Below, one piece after another: positions 17,179-26,737 of a DNA stretch of 64,000 bases. Position numbers and translations under genes: made by a program. Below the pieces are notes generated by a model. That model was not told where the DNA came from and ran no database searches. It was given only the letters and a program-made list of their open reading frames with translations. This DNA is from Moritella sp. PE36 (lineage in GTDB: Bacteria; Pseudomonadota; Gammaproteobacteria; Enterobacterales; Moritellaceae): NCBI RefSeq assembly GCF_000170855.1, contig NZ_ABCQ01000007.1:62001-126000 (forward strand), in the 5' to 3' direction. Every line of letters begins with the position of its first letter. Position 1 is the first letter of the stretch.

Positions 17179-17895
17179 CTATTTTTTAAAATTACGCTGA
17201 ATAGACACCAATGCACCACGTAAAATATTTAATTCTATAGTTTCAGGACGAGCACGGGTGAAGAGTCGACGTAAACGATTCATCACAACACCTGGGTGGG
17301 CTTTGTTAATAAAACCAGAATCCCACAATGTCTGTTCAAGATGCGTATGGAACATTTCAAGTTCCTCTTGTTTTGGATACGGGTTCTCTTGTTCAGGATA
17401 AGTGTTGGTAGCAAGATATGCCATACGTGTTTCGTACGTTAAGATCTGTACTGCCATGGCTAAATTCAATGAACTGTATTCAGGATTTGCAGCAACACAT
17501 ACATGATAAGTACATTTTTGTAGCTCTTCATTGGTCAAACCAATACGCTCACGACCAAATACCAGTGCCACTGGATAATTCGGTACTTCTTCAATTAATT
17601 TTAACCCTGCTTCACGTGAATCCAGCATTGGCCATTGCAGCGTGCGTGAACGCGCACTTGTACCAATCACAAGGCCACAGTCTGCTACCGCTTCTTCTAA
17701 GGTATCGACGATCGTTGCATTCTCTAATACATCTGCAGCACCGGCAGCTAATGCGACTGATTTCTCATCAATCTCACATAAAGGTGCCACTAGCACTAAT
17801 TGCGTGAACCCCATGGTTTTCATTGCTCGAGCAGCAGAACCAATATTACCAGGATGAGATGTACCGACTAATACAACTTTTACGTTTGCTAACAT
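17179..17895 (-). CDS. trmJ: tRNA (cytidine/uridine-32-2'-O)-methyltransferase TrmJ
   Basis: TrmJ 2'-O-methylates position 32 of several tRNAs using SAM. The 238-residue SPOUT-fold protein has the N-terminal [20 protein letters not shown], the knot segment [16 protein letters not shown] and a C-terminal [13 protein letters not shown] segment. It lies upstream of iscR in the same orientation and divergent from suhB, as in E. coli. Confidence 0.95.
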
Positions 17896-18127: not shown

Positions 18128-18171
18128 CCGCGCCCTAATTCCCGTTCTTTCAAAAATTTGGTGGTAATAGT

Positions 18172-18975
18172 ATGCATCCGATGCTAACAATCGCGATCCG
18201 TGCTGCGCGTGACGCAGGCAATGTAATCGTAAAAGCTTATGGCGATCCTAGTAAAACTAAGGTTGAGCAAAAAGGCACAAATGATTTTGTGACTAACGTA
18301 GAAAAAGAAGCTGAAGCAGCTATTATCGCTACAATTAAAAAAGCTTACCCAGAGCATACGATCATCGCTAAAGACAGCGGTGCGACTACTGGTGCAGATA
18401 CAGACTACCAGTGGATCATTGACCCACTAAACGGTCATATTAACTTTATCAAAGGTATTCCACACTTCGCAGTGTCTATTGCTTTACACGTTAAAGGTAA
18501 AGCTGAAGTTGCTGTTATCTTTGATGCTATCGGTGATGAAATCTTCTCTGCTTGTCGTGGTAAAGGCGCTCAATTAAACGGTTTCCGTTTACGTGCTGGT
18601 TCTGCTAAAGATCTATCTGGTACTGTTTTAGCGACAGGCTTCCCACACAGCATGAAGCATCAGCAAGATACTTACATGAACATCTTCGGCGCATTATTCT
18701 CTGAATGTGCTGATATCCGTGCAGCTGGTTGTCCTGCACTTAACCTTGCTTACCTAGCAGCTGGTCGTATCGACGGTTTATGGAGCATGGGTCAAAAACC
18801 TTGGGAAACTGCAGCGGGTAACTTAATCGCTACTGAATCAGGCGCTATCGTCACTGATTTCGCTGGCGGCCATGACTTCTTCAAGTCTGGTAACTCAGTT
18901 GCTGCATCGCCACGTGTACTTAAAGATATGCTTGCTAAGATCCGTCCTAACCTGACTGAATCTTTAGCTAAATAA
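18172..18975 (+). CDS. suhB: SuhB, inositol monophosphatase-fold protein with degraded active site
   Basis: SuhB belongs to the inositol-1-monophosphatase family; in E. coli it also acts with Nus factors in rRNA antitermination. The 267-residue protein aligns with E. coli SuhB without gaps over the first 216 residues, yet metal and catalytic positions differ: Glu67 is Lys, Asp87 of the DPLDGT motif is Asn (DPLNGHIN), Thr89-Thr90 are His-Ile, and Asp212 of PWD is Glu (PWETAAG). Asp84 remains. Phosphatase activity is therefore doubtful, while the fold and length are kept. The start ATG is preceded by GGTGG, and a strong terminator follows. It neighbours trmJ, as in E. coli. Confidence 0.93.
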   Translation: MHPMLTIAIRAARDAGNVIVKAYGDPSKTKVEQKGTNDFVTNVEKEAEAAIIATIKKAYPEHTIIAKDSGATTGADTDYQWIIDPLNGHINFIKGIPHFAVSIALHVKGKAEVAVIFDAIGDEIFSACRGKGAQLNGFRLRAGSAKDLSGTVLATGFPHSMKHQQDTYMNIFGALFSECADIRAAGCPALNLAYLAAGRIDGLWSMGQKPWETAAGNLIATESGAIVTDFAGGHDFFKSGNSVAASPRVLKDMLAKIRPNLTESLAK

Positions 18976-19096: not shown

Positions 19097-20458
19097 TTAC
19101 GCCATAGATAATGTCTTCTCAGCTATCCCTTCATTTACGCTTTGTGCTGCACTTGCCGGTTCACAGTCATGTTCACTATCATCATTGGTCCATTGGATAA
19201 CATGTTCATTTTCAAACAAATCAAATGCTGGAACGGGTAATAAATCATTAATGATTTTAGCAGAGCGCCAAGCCATTAAGCTCAGTTGAGGATCGGCAAT
19301 ACCATGACTATCTAATCCCGCATTAACGGCATAAATATGGTTATCTTGACCACCAGACCATTTCACTCTGAAGTTTGGATCAAGTTGCAATAAACCACCC
19401 TCTGATAAATCCAGCATCGGCGTTAACGCTTTAATACAATTAGGAATTTTTGACTCAAACCCGGTCGCTAAAATAACGACAGTGGCGGCATAATGTTCCT
19501 CTTTACCAGTTAAAGTATTATTAGCCATTAACTTAAAACCATTGGTCGTATTGCTCATTGCATTTACAGTTCGATGTGGCAATAAGCGCACCCATTTACG
19601 TTGTTTTTGCACTTCAAATTTATCATATAGTTCTTGATAAATAGCTAATAATGCTTCGCTTGTGATCCCATCACTGGTTAACTTCTGCGCCCGGATCTCT
19701 TGCTGTTTTACCGCTTCATCCAAATGATAGAACTGCTCAACATAACGAGGCATAAAGTATTCATTACTAAACGCTGCCTCATCTAAAGCTTGGAAATTTG
19801 CGCGTCGTGATAACCAATCTAGCTGAGCAGGTTGCCCCCAATTTCCACGTAACGCATTTAAAAATACATCAGCGCCGGTTTGACCACCACCGACCAGCAC
19901 AACGCGCTTGCCAGTCAAATCAATATTACGTAAGCCAATTTCACTGGCATGGAAACAATTGTCACCTAAATAAGGTTTTATTTCTGTCGGGATATAAGGC
20001 GACTTGCCAGTCCCTAAACAAATGTGCTTAGTCTGATATTGCCCTTGGTTCGTCGTAACAATAAAACGATCGTCAACAAATTCAATCTGTTCAACAGTCT
20101 GCGAAAATTTCACATTAGTGAGTTGTTTTGAGGCCCAAGATAAATAATCAGAGAACTCAGCGCGGGTAATCGTTTTTTGCTCAGTATTTAAAAAACGATA
20201 GAACTTTTTATTTCGGACTAAATAAGCAATAAAACTATATGGACTTTCTGGTGCCACAGCGGTGACAAGATCCTTTAAGTAGGATGTTTGCATATACGTG
20301 TTTGGCAGCATTAAACCTTCATGCCAAATAAATTCTTTTTTATGCTCTAAAAAGCAGCTTGTTAAACTTGGAACCTGTTCAAGTAGCGCGGCAATACTTA
20401 AGTTAAAAGGGCCAACACCTATACCCATAATATCTGTTAATCTTTCCATCTTGCTCAT
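19097..20458 (-). CDS. iucD: L-lysine N6-monooxygenase, aerobactin synthesis
   Basis: IucD hydroxylates the epsilon-amino group of lysine using FAD, NADPH and O2, the first step to aerobactin. The 453-residue protein begins with a family FAD site (GIGVGPFNLSIAALLE), has an NADPH site (VVLVGGGQTGADVFLNALRG) and ends with ATGFESKIP and GIADPQLSLMAWRSAKI. Throughout it resembles aerobactin IucD more than ornithine hydroxylases such as PvdA; substrate choice is inferred from that and from the IucA/B/C partners. It is the last gene of the siderophore operon, two bases after the iucA-iucB fusion. Confidence 0.93.
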   Translation of the reverse strand: MSKMERLTDIMGIGVGPFNLSIAALLEQVPSLTSCFLEHKKEFIWHEGLMLPNTYMQTSYLKDLVTAVAPESPYSFIAYLVRNKKFYRFLNTEQKTITRAEFSDYLSWASKQLTNVKFSQTVEQIEFVDDRFIVTTNQGQYQTKHICLGTGKSPYIPTEIKPYLGDNCFHASEIGLRNIDLTGKRVVLVGGGQTGADVFLNALRGNWGQPAQLDWLSRRANFQALDEAAFSNEYFMPRYVEQFYHLDEAVKQQEIRAQKLTSDGITSEALLAIYQELYDKFEVQKQRKWVRLLPHRTVNAMSNTTNGFKLMANNTLTGKEEHYAATVVILATGFESKIPNCIKALTPMLDLSEGGLLQLDPNFRVKWSGGQDNHIYAVNAGLDSHGIADPQLSLMAWRSAKIINDLLPVPAFDLFENEHVIQWTNDDSEHDCEPASAAQSVNEGIAEKTLSMA

Positions 20459-20460
20459 CC

Positions 20461-23238
20461 TTAAATAATACGCTCAAAAAAATCATTCCGTTCACTACAC
20501 AGTAATGCAGCTCTTTTATGCGGAAAATCGAACTCTTTTAACTTCTGTAAACCAACCTTACTCGCGATCGTCGCCACGTGTTTATTATCAGCTCGCGGCT
20601 CGCCCAATACATTTCCTGTGCGCTGCTCATCGGTATAAATGGCATGCTGTAGACAACTCGCCCAATTAACAAAGTAGCGCCCACCTAAGAACAATGGATT
20701 GCCCACCAGCATATGTACACCACGATCATAATGCTGACAGTCATAATAAATGCCGAGACGATCTTCAGGCGTCCAATACACTTCTAAATAGCCAAATGCG
20801 ACACCATCAACATAACCAATCACAGCCATGCTATGCGGATCCGCTGTTTGTTTTTCAAGGTATTGTTGATGCTCAGATTTTGTTCCTGCGAGTTCCCACA
20901 TTCGGTTCACTTCAGGACGATTATGCCAATGGCTGAATGTGGCTACATCCAAGCTAATGTCTGCACATTTAAAACTAATCACCCGATCAAGATCATAGGC
21001 GTATTGCTGATACCAAATACCTTGAGGCTGCGGTGGACGTTGTGGATACTCAATGCCTTGCTCAGATAGCAATAAGGGAGAGTCTACATTCGTGTTTGCT
21101 TGGTTTTGAGACCAAATGTTAGCGAATTGAAAAAACGCAGCGCGTTGAATATGCACGTCATCACCGACACTTTCAGCCCACTTCGGTATTTTCGCTGTGG
21201 TCATTGTTAACCATAACGACTGGTTGATAGTGATGGTTTTACGATTAACGCCCATACCAGAAAACGTGTGTTCAAGAATATTAAACCACTGTGCTTGGTT
21301 TAACGTATCAGTGCTGGTATCCATCACTGTATGTAAGCCATGCTCGTCATAACTAAACGACCACAGACTTAAGCAGCTCGTTACCGTAAATTGCTTTCCA
21401 GTGGTTTCAAATACCAGCTCAGATCCCGTTTTATTGGTATGACCGCTATCAGCCTTACCAATAATGCCTTGCTGTCGGAATAACGGTTTAAATACAGTCT
21501 TAACTTCCTTCTTCACCGCCAACTTAAAAATATTCGGATAGTTGACATAAATTTTACTTGGGTCCGCGATCTCAGTTTCATTTTGCGCTGACAAGAAACA
21601 GAAGAAATTACTTTTAATCGTTAAGCTGTCGCTATTGAGCAGATAATCATAAAACGAGCGATCATAAAAACTCTGTTGCGCTAATTTACGCCATAGATTT
21701 TGGCTCAACTGAATCAACTGCTCATGTGATACGACACTATCCTCAGTACTGCGATTCAGTAACGGTAAGTCACTTTGCAATGCCGCTATCACGCTATTGA
21801 GTGAATTAACGATAAGGTAATAACTGAAATACGAATTCACATTTTCATTCTGCATGAAATATTCTGGCGCATTTTCTTGTAGTAACGGAAAACGTGTTAC
21901 TGCCGTTTCTGTAAACCCGGTTCCCTGACAATCTCTGAATTTAGCGCCGCAAGGCAAGCCATGGTCAAAATCCACCAAAATGTTTTGTTGATGTGCCAAT
22001 AACACCAAGCCGTAATCACTGCGAGCAACGCAGATTGGTTTTATCACCTGCTCTAAGAATTGTTCGAACCATACCAAACTTGCGTCACGATAAGATAGCG
22101 ACTGATGTTCAGCAAATTGCATGATTAAATCTTGAATGAAATTACTACCATCGGCCTTAGTCTGGGTTAATGTCGCTAACACCATGCTTGGCTCTTTACC
22201 TGTTGGGAACGGATTTTCACGCCAACAGAACAAGCTATCAACAATCGACTCACCAGCAAGATCATTTAATCCACACCATGCAGGTTCTTGTAATACCGAG
22301 AAGCGAGGGAAGCGTTGCCACAACTCTGCACCCGCTACTTCTTCACTAACCTGCTTGAACAATACTCCACGTTCCAGCTCTTTAACCGATAAGTAACGGA
22401 CTGAGTTTGTCAGCTTCACCGCTAAAGAAAACTTCAACATCCAGCGGCTATCTTGCTGCCATAACGCGCGGGTTGATGATGTCGGATGCCAAGCCCTACC
22501 CTGCTTACTATCCGTAAACTCAATAATCAAACCATCAGCAAAATATTGTTGTATGCTGGTATTCTCACGCAGTACTTTGGCTTGATGTGGGTGCACAGGG
22601 AAAGCCAGATAACCGTCAGGGATAGTGTCAGGAAATGTCGTGGTATTAAATGTATCTTGATAGGTTTGCAGCAGTAAGGCTGAAATTGATTCGCCATGAC
22701 TATTGCCCGCCAATAATGTCGGCGCGACAAAATACCACTGCAACGAAAAGCTATTCGCGTAATCAGGGCTATACAGTTTAGACTCTGCTGCGGTCCAACC
22801 TTGATGACTCTTACCTGCAGGATGTAAATTATGCCCACCGATAAGGCTCTGCTCCGCCTGAATAAAACCATCAATACCGACAGGAGCAAGTCGTTCCGCC
22901 AATACATTTTCCATATGCGCCTGACTGGCAAACACTTGTTGTTTAAAGCCCGTCAATTGGGTTTGACTAAAATCACCGGTGATCTCATGATGCTTACAAA
23001 TCAATTCAATTACGTCAGCATAAGCGATATCTGACTCACCCTGTAAATCACGAAACTTAACCGGGTAATTAAATTGAAAACGCTGAACGGGAGAATACTG
23101 TAATAATGGCAGTACTATTTGTCCTTCCGCCATATCGATACAAATTTCATGCTGCGTTGTCGCATAACCTTGCCATTCATTAAGCAATGCATTTAAAAAC
23201 GCATCTAATGATAGCTTCTCAGCATAACTATACTGCAT
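20461..23238 (-). CDS. iucA-iucB: fused aerobactin synthetase IucA and N6-hydroxylysine acetyltransferase IucB
   Basis: One uninterrupted 925-residue frame joins two enzymes. Residues 1 to about 575 are an IucA-type NIS synthetase (GHNLHPAGKSHQGW, HPTSSTRALW, KFSLAVKLTNSVR, LLAHQQNILVDF), which condenses acetyl-hydroxylysine with citrate. Residues about 580-925 are IucB-like, with a GNAT domain at about 754-925 (FSHWHNRPEVNRMWE, GYLEVYWTPEDR, LGEPRADN, EFDFPHKRA) that acetylates N6-hydroxylysine. In the classical aerobactin operon these are separate genes. ATG at 23238 is chosen because AGAGGAGA lies about 6 bases upstream. The start overlaps the nitroreductase stop by 11 bases. Confidence 0.93.
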   Translation of the reverse strand: MQYSYAEKLSLDAFLNALLNEWQGYATTQHEICIDMAEGQIVLPLLQYSPVQRFQFNYPVKFRDLQGESDIAYADVIELICKHHEITGDFSQTQLTGFKQQVFASQAHMENVLAERLAPVGIDGFIQAEQSLIGGHNLHPAGKSHQGWTAAESKLYSPDYANSFSLQWYFVAPTLLAGNSHGESISALLLQTYQDTFNTTTFPDTIPDGYLAFPVHPHQAKVLRENTSIQQYFADGLIIEFTDSKQGRAWHPTSSTRALWQQDSRWMLKFSLAVKLTNSVRYLSVKELERGVLFKQVSEEVAGAELWQRFPRFSVLQEPAWCGLNDLAGESIVDSLFCWRENPFPTGKEPSMVLATLTQTKADGSNFIQDLIMQFAEHQSLSYRDASLVWFEQFLEQVIKPICVARSDYGLVLLAHQQNILVDFDHGLPCGAKFRDCQGTGFTETAVTRFPLLQENAPEYFMQNENVNSYFSYYLIVNSLNSVIAALQSDLPLLNRSTEDSVVSHEQLIQLSQNLWRKLAQQSFYDRSFYDYLLNSDSLTIKSNFFCFLSAQNETEIADPSKIYVNYPNIFKLAVKKEVKTVFKPLFRQQGIIGKADSGHTNKTGSELVFETTGKQFTVTSCLSLWSFSYDEHGLHTVMDTSTDTLNQAQWFNILEHTFSGMGVNRKTITINQSLWLTMTTAKIPKWAESVGDDVHIQRAAFFQFANIWSQNQANTNVDSPLLLSEQGIEYPQRPPQPQGIWYQQYAYDLDRVISFKCADISLDVATFSHWHNRPEVNRMWELAGTKSEHQQYLEKQTADPHSMAVIGYVDGVAFGYLEVYWTPEDRLGIYYDCQHYDRGVHMLVGNPLFLGGRYFVNWASCLQHAIYTDEQRTGNVLGEPRADNKHVATIASKVGLQKLKEFDFPHKRAALLCSERNDFFERII

Positions 23239-23842
23239 CGCTGTTCTCCTCTGTCGCAAATAGTGGTACTAGTTTTCCATCGCCTTGCCATTGATAACAA
23301 TGCTTATCCACCTCGCCACGCGGTTTAATACGCTCTGTTTTTTTAGTCCCCAGCATAATAAAGGCCACAGGTTCTTGTTGCGCCGTTAAGCCAAATAATT
23401 GTTGCACGCGGGGTAACTCCGCCGCATCGGTGCTGTACCAAATAGCCGCAACACCTTGCTCTTCAGCCGCCAGTAAAATATTCTGACACGCAGCTGCGGC
23501 TGATAATACTTGGTCTCGGCGAGACACAGGGTGAGGACTGGTAATGTTAGCCGAGACAACGACAACCATAGGCGCATCACCAAGATAATGAGTAAGTCGA
23601 CGCACCTTGGCGGGATCAATATCACCACCTTCTTCCAACCAAGCCTCACACATTAACTCACACATTATCGGTACTTTTTCATTGGCAACAACAACCAAAT
23701 GCCAAGGCCGAATATTGCCGTGGTCGGGGGCGCTCATGACCGCCTGAAAGATACGTTTCAACTGCATTTCATCCGGTGCAGGCTGACACATTTCATGGAC
23801 GTGACAAGAGCTACGCTGATAAATAAAATCTAAAACAGGCAT
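23228..23842 (-). CDS. nitroreductase-family flavoprotein in the siderophore operon
   Basis: This 204-residue protein resembles small single-domain nitroreductases such as E. coli YdjA: an N-terminal YQRSSCHVHE segment, SAPDHGNIRPWHLVVV, and a C-terminal AIWYSTDAAELPRVQQLFGL and FIMLGTKK. These enzymes bind FMN and reduce substrates with NAD(P)H. ATG at 23842 follows the fhuB-like stop by two bases and has AAGGA upstream, and its 3' end overlaps iucA-iucB by 11 bases. Location suggests a siderophore-related redox role, perhaps ferric-siderophore reduction, but this is inference. No ferric-siderophore reductase of the FhuF or SIP type is present in the cluster. Confidence 0.85.
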   Translation of the reverse strand: MPVLDFIYQRSSCHVHEMCQPAPDEMQLKRIFQAVMSAPDHGNIRPWHLVVVANEKVPIMCELMCEAWLEEGGDIDPAKVRRLTHYLGDAPMVVVVSANITSPHPVSRRDQVLSAAAACQNILLAAEEQGVAAIWYSTDAAELPRVQQLFGLTAQQEPVAFIMLGTKKTERIKPRGEVDKHCYQWQGDGKLVPLFATEENSDAV

Positions 23843-23844
23843 GA

Positions 23845-25773
23845 TCAATTCCTTTTATAACCAAGTAAAATCAAACAAATAAAGTAAAGTCCGCCAATGA
23901 TCGAAACTAATATGCCACTGGCAATCTCAAATGGTGCAATTAAGGTACGACCGAGTCCGTCGGCGAGTACTAATAGCCAAGCGCCAATCGCACCACTGCC
24001 AAGCAGCAATACCCAATGACGAGTTTGTCCACATAAACGCAATAAGTGTGGCGATAACAATCCAACAAACGCAATCGCACCAACGGACGCGACGGCAGCC
24101 GCGGTAATCAACACCACCAACAATAAGATCAACATGCGTAATTTAAATAACGGCTGGCCGAGGTTATGTCCCCATGTCTCACCGAGCGTGAACAGATCAA
24201 GATGACGCGCAAACGTAAAGAGTAATAAACAACAAGGTATAGTGACCGCAAGCAGCAGTAAGCCGATTTGACTATCAGCACCATAGGTAGTGCCCGTCAG
24301 CCAAAGGACGGTGACCGACGCAGCGCCCGCACCAAAGGTTAATACCATCGATGCAACGGTGCCGCACCATGCTGAGATGGCGATACCCAATAAAGCGAGT
24401 TGCGAAACATTAAATTGATAACGCATCGCAATAAACAAAATAGTCACCACAATACCCGCACCAATCAAGGCACAAGCAAACAGAAATACCCGAGAAGCAT
24501 CAGGCCATACTTGCAGTGCTAAAATAATGCATAATACCGAGGCTGAAGTAGCGCCTGAAATGTCAGGGCTGGCCATCGGGTTACGAAACAGTGCTTGTAA
24601 TGTACAACCCGCAACGCCTAAGCCAAAACCAGAAAAGACCGCAACGACAATGCGCCATTGTGTAAAGTACTCGCCATCAACAGTCGGCCAGAAATAGGCC
24701 ACTGTCAGTGTCAACGCTAGCGCAGGTAAAGACAGTGCTAACCACTTAGGTAGCTGAATAAGCGACGCTAAGCCAAACCCAGTTTCTTGCATGACCATGC
24801 CCGCTAAACCTTGTTTTCGCATAAGTAAATACAAGAAAAAAGGGGTACCCAATAGAACGGTTAATACACCCGTTGGTAAGCGATAACCAGCCAATGGCAT
24901 AGCACGAGAGAATAGCTCCGCAAAGATAACTAATAACGCCCCTATCGCACTGGCAAATAGCAATTTTTCACGATGACGATAGTAACCAAGTAACTTCGCC
25001 ATGTGTGGTGCCATCAAACCAATAAAGCCTAATACACCGACCATTGCGGTCACTAAAGATGCTTGCAATACCGCCAACATTAATAGACCGACTCGCCAGC
25101 GATTGACTTTAAGGCCTGCCGTATTCGCCATTTCATCACCCATGCTGAGCATATCCAGATGACGATGACACAATAAAGGCAATAACAATAACAACAGCGC
25201 TGGGGTTAAAATGATCGCCGCTAATTCGCCATCACTTTGGCTAATGTTGCCGCTTCCCCAGAGGAATAACCCATCCATACGTTGTTCAGCATAAAGCATG
25301 ATGGCAGATGACACGGCACCCACCGCTAAGCTCATAGCCATACCAATTAAGATCAGCTGTAACTTACCGCCACCAATCACTTGCGATAAGATTAAAATGA
25401 GTCCCGCAACCATCACCGCCGTAATAAATGCCGCGATCCACAACATCCAGATGCTCGGATCAGGGATAAATAAATTAACCAGCATCGCGCCTAACAACGC
25501 CCCAGAGCTAATGCCGATCGTGGACGGTGATGCAAAATCATTACCTAAGGTAACCTGTACTACGGTGCCTGATTGCGCTAATAACGCACCACTTAATACG
25601 GCAATTAATAGCGTGGGTAACAACAGCTGAAATACATAAGTTTGTTGGTAACTATCAAATAGATTCATTGTGGGAACGAGAGAAAAAGTACCCACAGAAA
25701 GTAAACCAAGCACAAACAACACAGCTAAGAACACCGAGCTCCCCAGCATTTTCTTATCAACATTAACTAACAT
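23845..25773 (-). CDS. fhuB: ferric hydroxamate ABC transporter permease, double-domain FhuB type
   Basis: This 642-residue membrane protein is two fused FecCD-type permease halves, as in FhuB. Each half carries a family motif late in its sequence (GVLGFIGLMAPHMAKLLGY at about 245 and GAIAFVGLLSPHLLRLCG at about 575), with about ten hydrophobic segments per half. It moves ferric siderophore across the inner membrane with the FhuC-like ATPase. Its start overlaps the binding-protein gene by 11 bases. Aerobactin is a hydroxamate siderophore taken up through Fhu systems, so placement here is logical. Confidence 0.92.
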   Translation of the reverse strand: MLVNVDKKMLGSSVFLAVLFVLGLLSVGTFSLVPTMNLFDSYQQTYVFQLLLPTLLIAVLSGALLAQSGTVVQVTLGNDFASPSTIGISSGALLGAMLVNLFIPDPSIWMLWIAAFITAVMVAGLILILSQVIGGGKLQLILIGMAMSLAVGAVSSAIMLYAEQRMDGLFLWGSGNISQSDGELAAIILTPALLLLLLPLLCHRHLDMLSMGDEMANTAGLKVNRWRVGLLMLAVLQASLVTAMVGVLGFIGLMAPHMAKLLGYYRHREKLLFASAIGALLVIFAELFSRAMPLAGYRLPTGVLTVLLGTPFFLYLLMRKQGLAGMVMQETGFGLASLIQLPKWLALSLPALALTLTVAYFWPTVDGEYFTQWRIVVAVFSGFGLGVAGCTLQALFRNPMASPDISGATSASVLCIILALQVWPDASRVFLFACALIGAGIVVTILFIAMRYQFNVSQLALLGIAISAWCGTVASMVLTFGAGAASVTVLWLTGTTYGADSQIGLLLLAVTIPCCLLLFTFARHLDLFTLGETWGHNLGQPLFKLRMLILLLVVLITAAAVASVGAIAFVGLLSPHLLRLCGQTRHWVLLLGSGAIGAWLLVLADGLGRTLIAPFEIASGILVSIIGGLYFICLILLGYKRN

Positions 25774-26737
25774 CGGAACCCTCCAATAATGCAGCCGTAA
25801 ACGCCCGAGCCATCCGGATCACCGATACCGGACCACCAAAACTCCACAATGCGGGTACATAATAGATATCATCGTTTTTAACAAACTCATGCTGCGTCCA
25901 TAACGGTGATAACGTCATGCGTTCGCCTTTTGATTGTGTTTCTTGGACTAAAATTAATGCGGTATTGCCGAGCAACTTGATCTGTTCCAACTGTAAATGA
26001 GTAAAATCTTTACCTGGTAAGTTAGTAGCCCACACGTAATTTAAGCCAATGTCATTAGCGACAGAAGCGGCTAAACTTTGCTGTGAAAACACCCTTAAGC
26101 CGTAGCCCATTCCCACAAACTTGCCATATGCCACCGGTTTATCCGCTAAGCCAGCGGCAAATATTTTCTGTTTAAGGCGAGCTAATTCGGTATCCATCTC
26201 CCGGAGCTGAACTTGTGCTAACTCCGCTTTACCAAGTTGCTTTGCAAGGGTTAAATAATTACGACGCATTTGCTGCATATAACGATATTGCGGTTGGTCT
26301 ATACGGCCAAACTGTTGTAACAATAACGTGGGTGCGATGCGATTAAGATCACCACGAATACGTGCATGACGAAACGGGTAACCAACAATTAAGTCGGGCT
26401 GTAATTGCATCAGTAAGGGAAAACTCGGAAATGCACGGTTACCCACATCAACCACATCATCAGGTAACGCAGGTGAATTAGACTGCCACTGGCGATAACC
26501 ATTTCGAGACGTCACCGCTTGTGGTTGTATTCCCAGCGACAGGAGCATTTCTGCCGCACTCCAATTAAGCGCAACGACTTTAGGCTCTTGCTGATATGTC
26601 TGCATTAATCCGGTGAGTGGCAAGGGTTGTGCTAACGCTTGAAAAACTTGCTCATTAATCTCTTTAGCAAATACTTGAACTGGTAATAATGTCATCGCAG
26701 CGAACATGAGACCAGCTACTGTTCGAAGCCGTCTCAT
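25763..26737 (-). CDS. fhuD: periplasmic ferric-siderophore binding protein, FhuD type
   Basis: The 324-residue protein has a Sec signal peptide (RRLRTVAGLMFAAMTLLPVQVFA) without a lipobox, so it is probably a soluble periplasmic protein like E. coli FhuD. The mature part is a helical-backbone (TroA/FecB-like) binding protein, with VVALNWSAAEMLLSLGIQP and LQPDLIVGYPF. It would hand ferric aerobactin to the FhuB-like permease. It overlaps the fhuC-like gene by four bases (ATGA). Confidence 0.9.
   Translation of the reverse strand: MRRLRTVAGLMFAAMTLLPVQVFAKEINEQVFQALAQPLPLTGLMQTYQQEPKVVALNWSAAEMLLSLGIQPQAVTSRNGYRQWQSNSPALPDDVVDVGNRAFPSFPLLMQLQPDLIVGYPFRHARIRGDLNRIAPTLLLQQFGRIDQPQYRYMQQMRRNYLTLAKQLGKAELAQVQLREMDTELARLKQKIFAAGLADKPVAYGKFVGMGYGLRVFSQQSLAASVANDIGLNYVWATNLPGKDFTHLQLEQIKLLGNTALILVQETQSKGERMTLSPLWTQHEFVKNDDIYYVPALWSFGGPVSVIRMARAFTAALLEGSDVS

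Follow-up and report, generated by a model that had tools for sequence, protein, structure and literature searches.

Loss of the inositol monophosphatase metal site across Moritella SuhB, a protein probably kept as a Nus factor

Functionally, SuhB of Escherichia coli (PDB 2qfl, 6ib7, 6ib8 and 6tqn) is both an inositol monophosphatase (IMPase) and a Nus factor, and the suhB phenotypes of E. coli are independent of IMPase activity, with an active-site null leaving them intact (PMC2834668, PMC4807359, PMC6614801). On the enzyme side, residues equivalent to E67, D84, D87 and D212, together with the carbonyl of residue 86, hold three Mg2+, and the equivalent of E205 (E228 in M. tuberculosis, E213 in human) is a specificity-determining substrate contact (PMC2080633). 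On the Nus side, a SuhB surface that includes K251 and L254 binds the AR2 repeat of NusA, and a double alanine change at these two residues abolishes the binding (PMC6614801). The E. coli gene is autoregulated through a boxA with the consensus GYTCTTTAANA (PMC5725501), and E. coli without suhB is cold-sensitive (PMC4807359). Inactive forms are known as laboratory IMPase mutants, with Asp-to-Asn changes in the DPxD motif of E. coli SuhB and of M. tuberculosis impC (D86N), the latter being unable to replace the functional gene (PMC2834668). A natural parallel is the PHP domain of E. coli DNA polymerase III (PMC3666897), a once-catalytic metal-binding fold that lost ligands and was kept, although its fold is unrelated and it is a polymerase domain, not a separate transcription factor. 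Our literature search returned no paper joining Moritella and SuhB, SuhB and D87N, or inositol monophosphatase and pseudoenzyme, and a natural pseudoenzyme form of SuhB is not described in the literature searched.

The suhB gene considered here lies in a 64,000-nucleotide stretch of Moritella sp. PE36 (contig NZ_ABCQ01000007.1, positions 62,001 to 126,000; hereafter the window), where the original prediction had placed a SuhB of unchanged fold, length and neighbourhood that had lost catalytic metal ligands. Its open reading frame (ORF) and translation were confirmed, the ORF being an intact one of 267 codons (Table 1). The protein passes the NCBIfam SuhB equivalog profile NF008027 (385.8 bits over residues 1-266, cut-off 332) and scores 209.6 bits against PF00459 (inositol monophosphatase superfamily), so that family profile and fold both place it in the family. 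Structurally, an AF2 model (pLDDT 94.5, pTM 0.92), made from an input alignment of gammaproteobacterial SuhBs only, superposes on the SuhB of the E. coli rrn antitermination complex structure (6tqn_S) with a deviation of 0.9 A and a Z of 42.6, and on human IMPase 2hhm with a Z of 35.8; the fold is uninformative on metal occupancy. Fold and length were thus as predicted, whereas the neighbourhood varies within the genus, since no trmJ was found within 1.5 kb of suhB in four of 11 Moritella genomes (L007, L009, L010 and L013). In L009 and L013, suhB is flanked by an ORF of 323-326 aa and an alpha/beta-hydrolase-like ORF, and in L007 the suhB coding sequence resembles that of the window while the 5' region resembles that of L013, a mixture that may be the result of recombination. 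In the window, suhB is also adjoined by an iron-siderophore gene cluster (19097-26737, minus strand), which encodes a 932-aa fusion of IucA/IucC, FhuF-like and GNAT acetyltransferase domains, a lysine/ornithine monooxygenase, a nitroreductase-family protein and a double FecCD permease.

Residue by residue, an alignment to E. coli SuhB (PDB 2qfl; 58-59% identity) that runs without gaps bore out the substitutions originally listed (E67K, D87N, T89H, T90I and D212E, with D84 kept), and added others that had been overlooked, namely D44E in 8 of 11 Moritella species and E205S, D191N, P119A and R184A in 11 of 11 each. Where the E. coli protein has E67, D87, T89, D44, E205, D212 and R184, its Moritella counterparts have K67, N87, mostly H89 and E44, S205, E212 and A184. 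The residues K67, N87, A119, A184, N191, S205 and E212 are common to all 11 species, three named Moritella genome records being among those with K67, N87 and E212, so the genus carries K67, D84, N87 and E212 throughout in place of the catalytic IMPase ligand set E67/D84/D87/D212. Correspondingly, 0 of 11 Moritella proteins match either PROSITE PS00629 (DPxDG[ST]) or PS00630 (the WD motif), patterns found in 76 and 73, respectively, of 82 other SuhBs of the order. Two of the predicted changes carry less weight than had been supposed: T90I is not diagnostic of catalytic loss, as intact SuhBs have S, A, N, R, K and others at this position, and D212E, while present, is weak evidence for a lost ligand, Glu being acidic and found in 4 of the 82 relatives of the order, all otherwise intact. 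It is T89, not T90, that is equivalent to human T95, and human D47 and T95 (SuhB 44 and 89) form the water-activating catalytic pair. Elsewhere in the protein, codon 159 (18646-18648) encodes a His fixed in 11/11 Moritella (Phe in 73/82 relatives of the order), and the conserved K160 that directly follows it is lost in the genus.

Table 1 Features of the Moritella sp. PE36 suhB locus, in window coordinates.
Feature	Position	Strand	Description
trmJ (SpoU-family methylase)	17179..17895	-	divergent neighbour of suhB; orthology context
suhB leader, 31 nt	18141..18171	+	identical in 11 Moritella species; boxA-like GTTCTTTCAAA at 18144-18154
suhB, 267 aa	18172..18975	+	SuhB ortholog, IMPase fold, degenerate metal/active site
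codon 44 GAA	18301..18303	+	D44E; human D47 equivalent; E in 8/11, D in 3/11 Moritella
codon 67 AAA	18370..18372	+	E67K, ligand of metal sites 1 and 3 to Lys; 11/11 Moritella, 0/190 others
codon 84	18421..18423	+	D84, sole unchanged metal-ligand Asp; invariant
codon 87 AAC	18430..18432	+	D87N, metal site 2 ligand; 11/11 Moritella, 0/190 others
codon 89 CAT	18436..18438	+	T89H, human T95 equivalent; Moritella: H 7, N 1, T 3
codon 90 ATT	18439..18441	+	T90I; varies in intact SuhBs, not diagnostic
codon 119	18526..18528	+	P119A; 11/11 Moritella; P in 189/190 others
codon 184 GCA	18721..18723	+	R184A, dimer core; 11/11 Moritella; R in 81/82 order, 103/108 class
codon 191	18742..18744	+	D191N; 11/11 Moritella
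codon 205 AGC	18784..18786	+	E205S, human E213, substrate contact; 11/11 Moritella; E in 82/82 order, 101/108 class
codon 212 GAA	18805..18807	+	D212E, metal site 2 ligand; 11/11 Moritella; Glu also in 4 relatives with intact site
codons 251-254 (K251, L254)	18922..18933	+	NusA AR2-binding residues in E. coli; kept 11/11 Moritella

The comparison of these residues took in 11 Moritella species and 190 non-Moritella SuhBs, of which 82 came from the same order and 108 from across the class. E67, D84 and D87 occur in all 190 of the latter, D44 in 189 and T89 also in 189. Within the order, E67, E68, D84, D87, E205 and R183 occur in 82/82, R184, D44 and T89 in 81/82 and D212 in 78/82; across the class, D44, E67, D84, D87, T89 and D212 occur in 108/108, R184 in 103/108 and E205 in 101/108. 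The residue-level alignment across related genomes that the original prediction had proposed as a check therefore shows losses that are genus-wide in Moritella, with E67 and D87 intact elsewhere, and the loss of this pair is unique to Moritella within the sampled SuhBs. A search of 369 genomes of the class for the pattern DPxNGxxN[FYIN] returned only the window suhB and two unrelated matches, one within an acyltransferase-like ORF and one in no SuhB-type ORF. Sequencing or assembly error is ruled out by the agreement of all 11 Moritella genomes, and background variation by the invariance of E67, D84 and D87 in the other SuhBs. Among the 190, the sole residue-44 change is a D44A in L112 (G021, family f21), where the metal ligands are intact.

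Two further ways in which the enzyme could have been preserved were also rejected. Acidic ligands supplied at shifted positions are not indicated by the sequence, the alignment being gapless and no acidic residue having been gained in the metal-binding motifs; the new acidic residues fixed in Moritella SuhB (14, 25, 122 and 235) all lie outside them. An intact paralog is ruled out as well, since the search for a second IMPase gene, likewise proposed at the outset, found no other SuhB in the Moritella genomes, the remaining family members being three CysQ-related proteins (L002, L003 and L004), two of which pass the CysQ cut-off while the other is a CysQ-like protein of 318 aa. In several species the residue of the 318-aa protein that corresponds to E67 is N or S (L045, L048-L050). 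An inositol-phosphate synthase domain was found in 0/11 Moritella genomes.

Evolutionarily, Moritella SuhB forms one clade in the protein tree (SH-aLRT 100), inside the order and sister to the SuhBs of family f25 (support 83), on a stem of length 0.47 versus 0.16 for that sister family. A DNA gene tree built with the substituted codons removed likewise recovered Moritella suhB as one clade with full support, and xenologous replacement is ruled out by the gene tree. On the DNA tree, one change each is needed at sites 44, 67, 87, 184 and 205 and two at site 89, and eight species form a group (support 94/92) that excludes the three with D44 and T89 retained; sites 44, 68 and 89 vary within Moritella only. 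Because D44E and the loss of T89 arose inside the genus, the simplest order of losses places the metal ligands and substrate contact first and the catalytic pair later. The ORF is intact in 11/11 species, and suhB is under purifying selection in Moritella, with an omega of ~0.14 (Nei-Gojobori, median of 55 pairs; 0.08 in the sister genus), which indicates that the protein is still constrained. Positions conserved in >=95% of other SuhBs were changed in 7 of 14 cases within the active-site motifs versus 3 of 46 elsewhere (Fisher p = 0.0007), with p of 0.014, 0.06 and 0.055 at stricter cut-offs of 97%, 98% and 99%; the motifs were defined from published work, but with several cut-offs applied successively and non-independent sites, this enrichment is descriptive.

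The original prediction had further suggested an RNA-polymerase-only SuhB, which is plausible on circumstantial grounds, but for the loss of a near-invariant arginine, R184. On the favourable side stand, beside the retained K251 and L254, a NusA with both C-terminal repeats, including AR2, that aligns full-length to E. coli NusA, and a NusB (each in 11/11 Moritella genomes), and a canonical boxA 196 nt upstream of the 16S rRNA in two of these genomes; because such partners are near-universal, their presence is weak evidence for a Nus role. The suhB leader adds the boxA-like GTTCTTTCAAA, 28 nt before the suhB ATG and so placed near the start codon like the boxA of E. coli suhB, with one mismatch to GYTCTTTAANA (C for the consensus A at position 8), and the sequence upstream of the 31-nt leader block diverges among Moritella species. 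R184A complicates a Nus-only reading and makes binding to RNA polymerase or the Nus factors less certain. An E. coli SuhB with R184I reportedly lost RNA polymerase binding/sensitivity and complementation, in work by Wang from 2007 in JBC. In the E. coli R184A variant (PDB 2qfl), Ala184 has been proposed to stabilise the dimer, the wild type being dimeric too and the crystal dimer of the variant matching it (PMC6614801), and in M. tuberculosis SuhB the dimer is promoted by Mg2+ (PMC2080633). In Moritella, unlike in that variant, A184 is natural and paired with loss of the metal site; it may compensate for the missing metal through a preference for the dimer, or may signal altered RNA polymerase binding.

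Taken together, we posit, at a probability of roughly 0.75, that Moritella has a naturally metal-free, catalytically dead SuhB that is kept as a Nus factor. The first part of this reading, a natural loss of catalysis with the gene retained, is well supported and, judged from the sequences, very probably correct: the substitutions affect ligands at each of the three metal sites, the motifs have gained no acidic residue, omega is low and no second SuhB or IMPase is present. A vertically inherited SuhB would have lost its IMPase Mg2+ site on the branch to Moritella (E67K, D87N and E205S, with D212E) and, we propose, been retained because its second role, that of fifth Nus factor in the rRNA transcription/antitermination complex, needs no phosphatase activity; the catalytic pair D44/T89 would then have decayed further inside the genus. 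The present-day protein would bind no catalytic Mg2+, lack IMPase activity and work in the Nus complex, K67 supplying the vacated pocket with a positive charge of its own and A184 favouring the dimer. A stronger version, in which a metal-free site took the place of the metal site, with K67 standing in for Mg2+ and R184A locking the dimer to give a constitutive Nus factor without a link to Mg2+ or substrate, is tentative and on balance doubtful.

Other readings weigh the same residues differently. D84 and E212, which remain, might bind a single metal ion weakly, and a phosphatase that remained metal-dependent, with one metal on D84, E212 and the residue 86 carbonyl and a slow or different chemistry, would fit the occurrence of Glu212 in relatives that are otherwise intact and the persistence of D44 and T89 in three species. 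We consider it improbable, given that a Lys sits at the ligand common to metal sites 1 and 3, that N87 replaces a site 2 ligand and S205 the substrate carboxylate, that D44/T89 drift in 8/11 species and no acidic residue in the motifs compensates, and that single Asp-to-Asn changes inactivate relatives (PMC2834668). Neofunctionalisation is about equally improbable: here the emptied pocket, with K67, H159 and often H89, would bind an anionic metabolite, RNA or something similar, and the stem changes would have been selected for the new role, as the fixation of K67 and H159 and the long Moritella stem followed by tight constraint might suggest; yet H89 is missing in four species, and this, with the drift at D44/T89, is what relaxation of the pocket, not selection on it, would be expected to give. 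Finally, SuhB might be decaying in both functions, dispensable or on its way out in Moritella, as could be read from the coincidence of R184A with active-site loss and from the separation of suhB from trmJ in four species. This appears very improbable when set against the universally intact ORF, the constraint measured by omega, the leader identical in 11 species and the retained K251 and L254, and also against the cold sensitivity that follows suhB loss in E. coli (PMC4807359), which would be costly for a cold-water genus.

On the preferred reading, in which SuhB persists as a Nus factor but no longer catalyses, the automatic annotation of the Moritella protein as an inositol-1-phosphatase (NF008027) is probably wrong. 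Compared with the laboratory active-site mutants, with which it shares the Asp-to-Asn change in the DPxD motif, the Moritella version is natural, genus-wide and multi-residue. It bears on a conflict, in that laboratory work in E. coli finds the phosphatase unneeded, yet the catalytic residues E67, D84 and D87 never vary in the 190 SuhBs sampled outside the genus, and such near-total conservation of the site means that catalysis or metal binding matters somewhere. If K67 does stand in for Mg2+, site conservation in other SuhBs would reflect a regulatory or structural metal, or a use of substrate, that Moritella has by-passed. On the preferred reading as a whole, Moritella SuhB would represent a natural separation of functions, with the enzyme site gone and the Nus-factor surface kept, and it offers a test of the role of the metal site in dimerisation, in NusA and RNA binding, and in growth in the cold.
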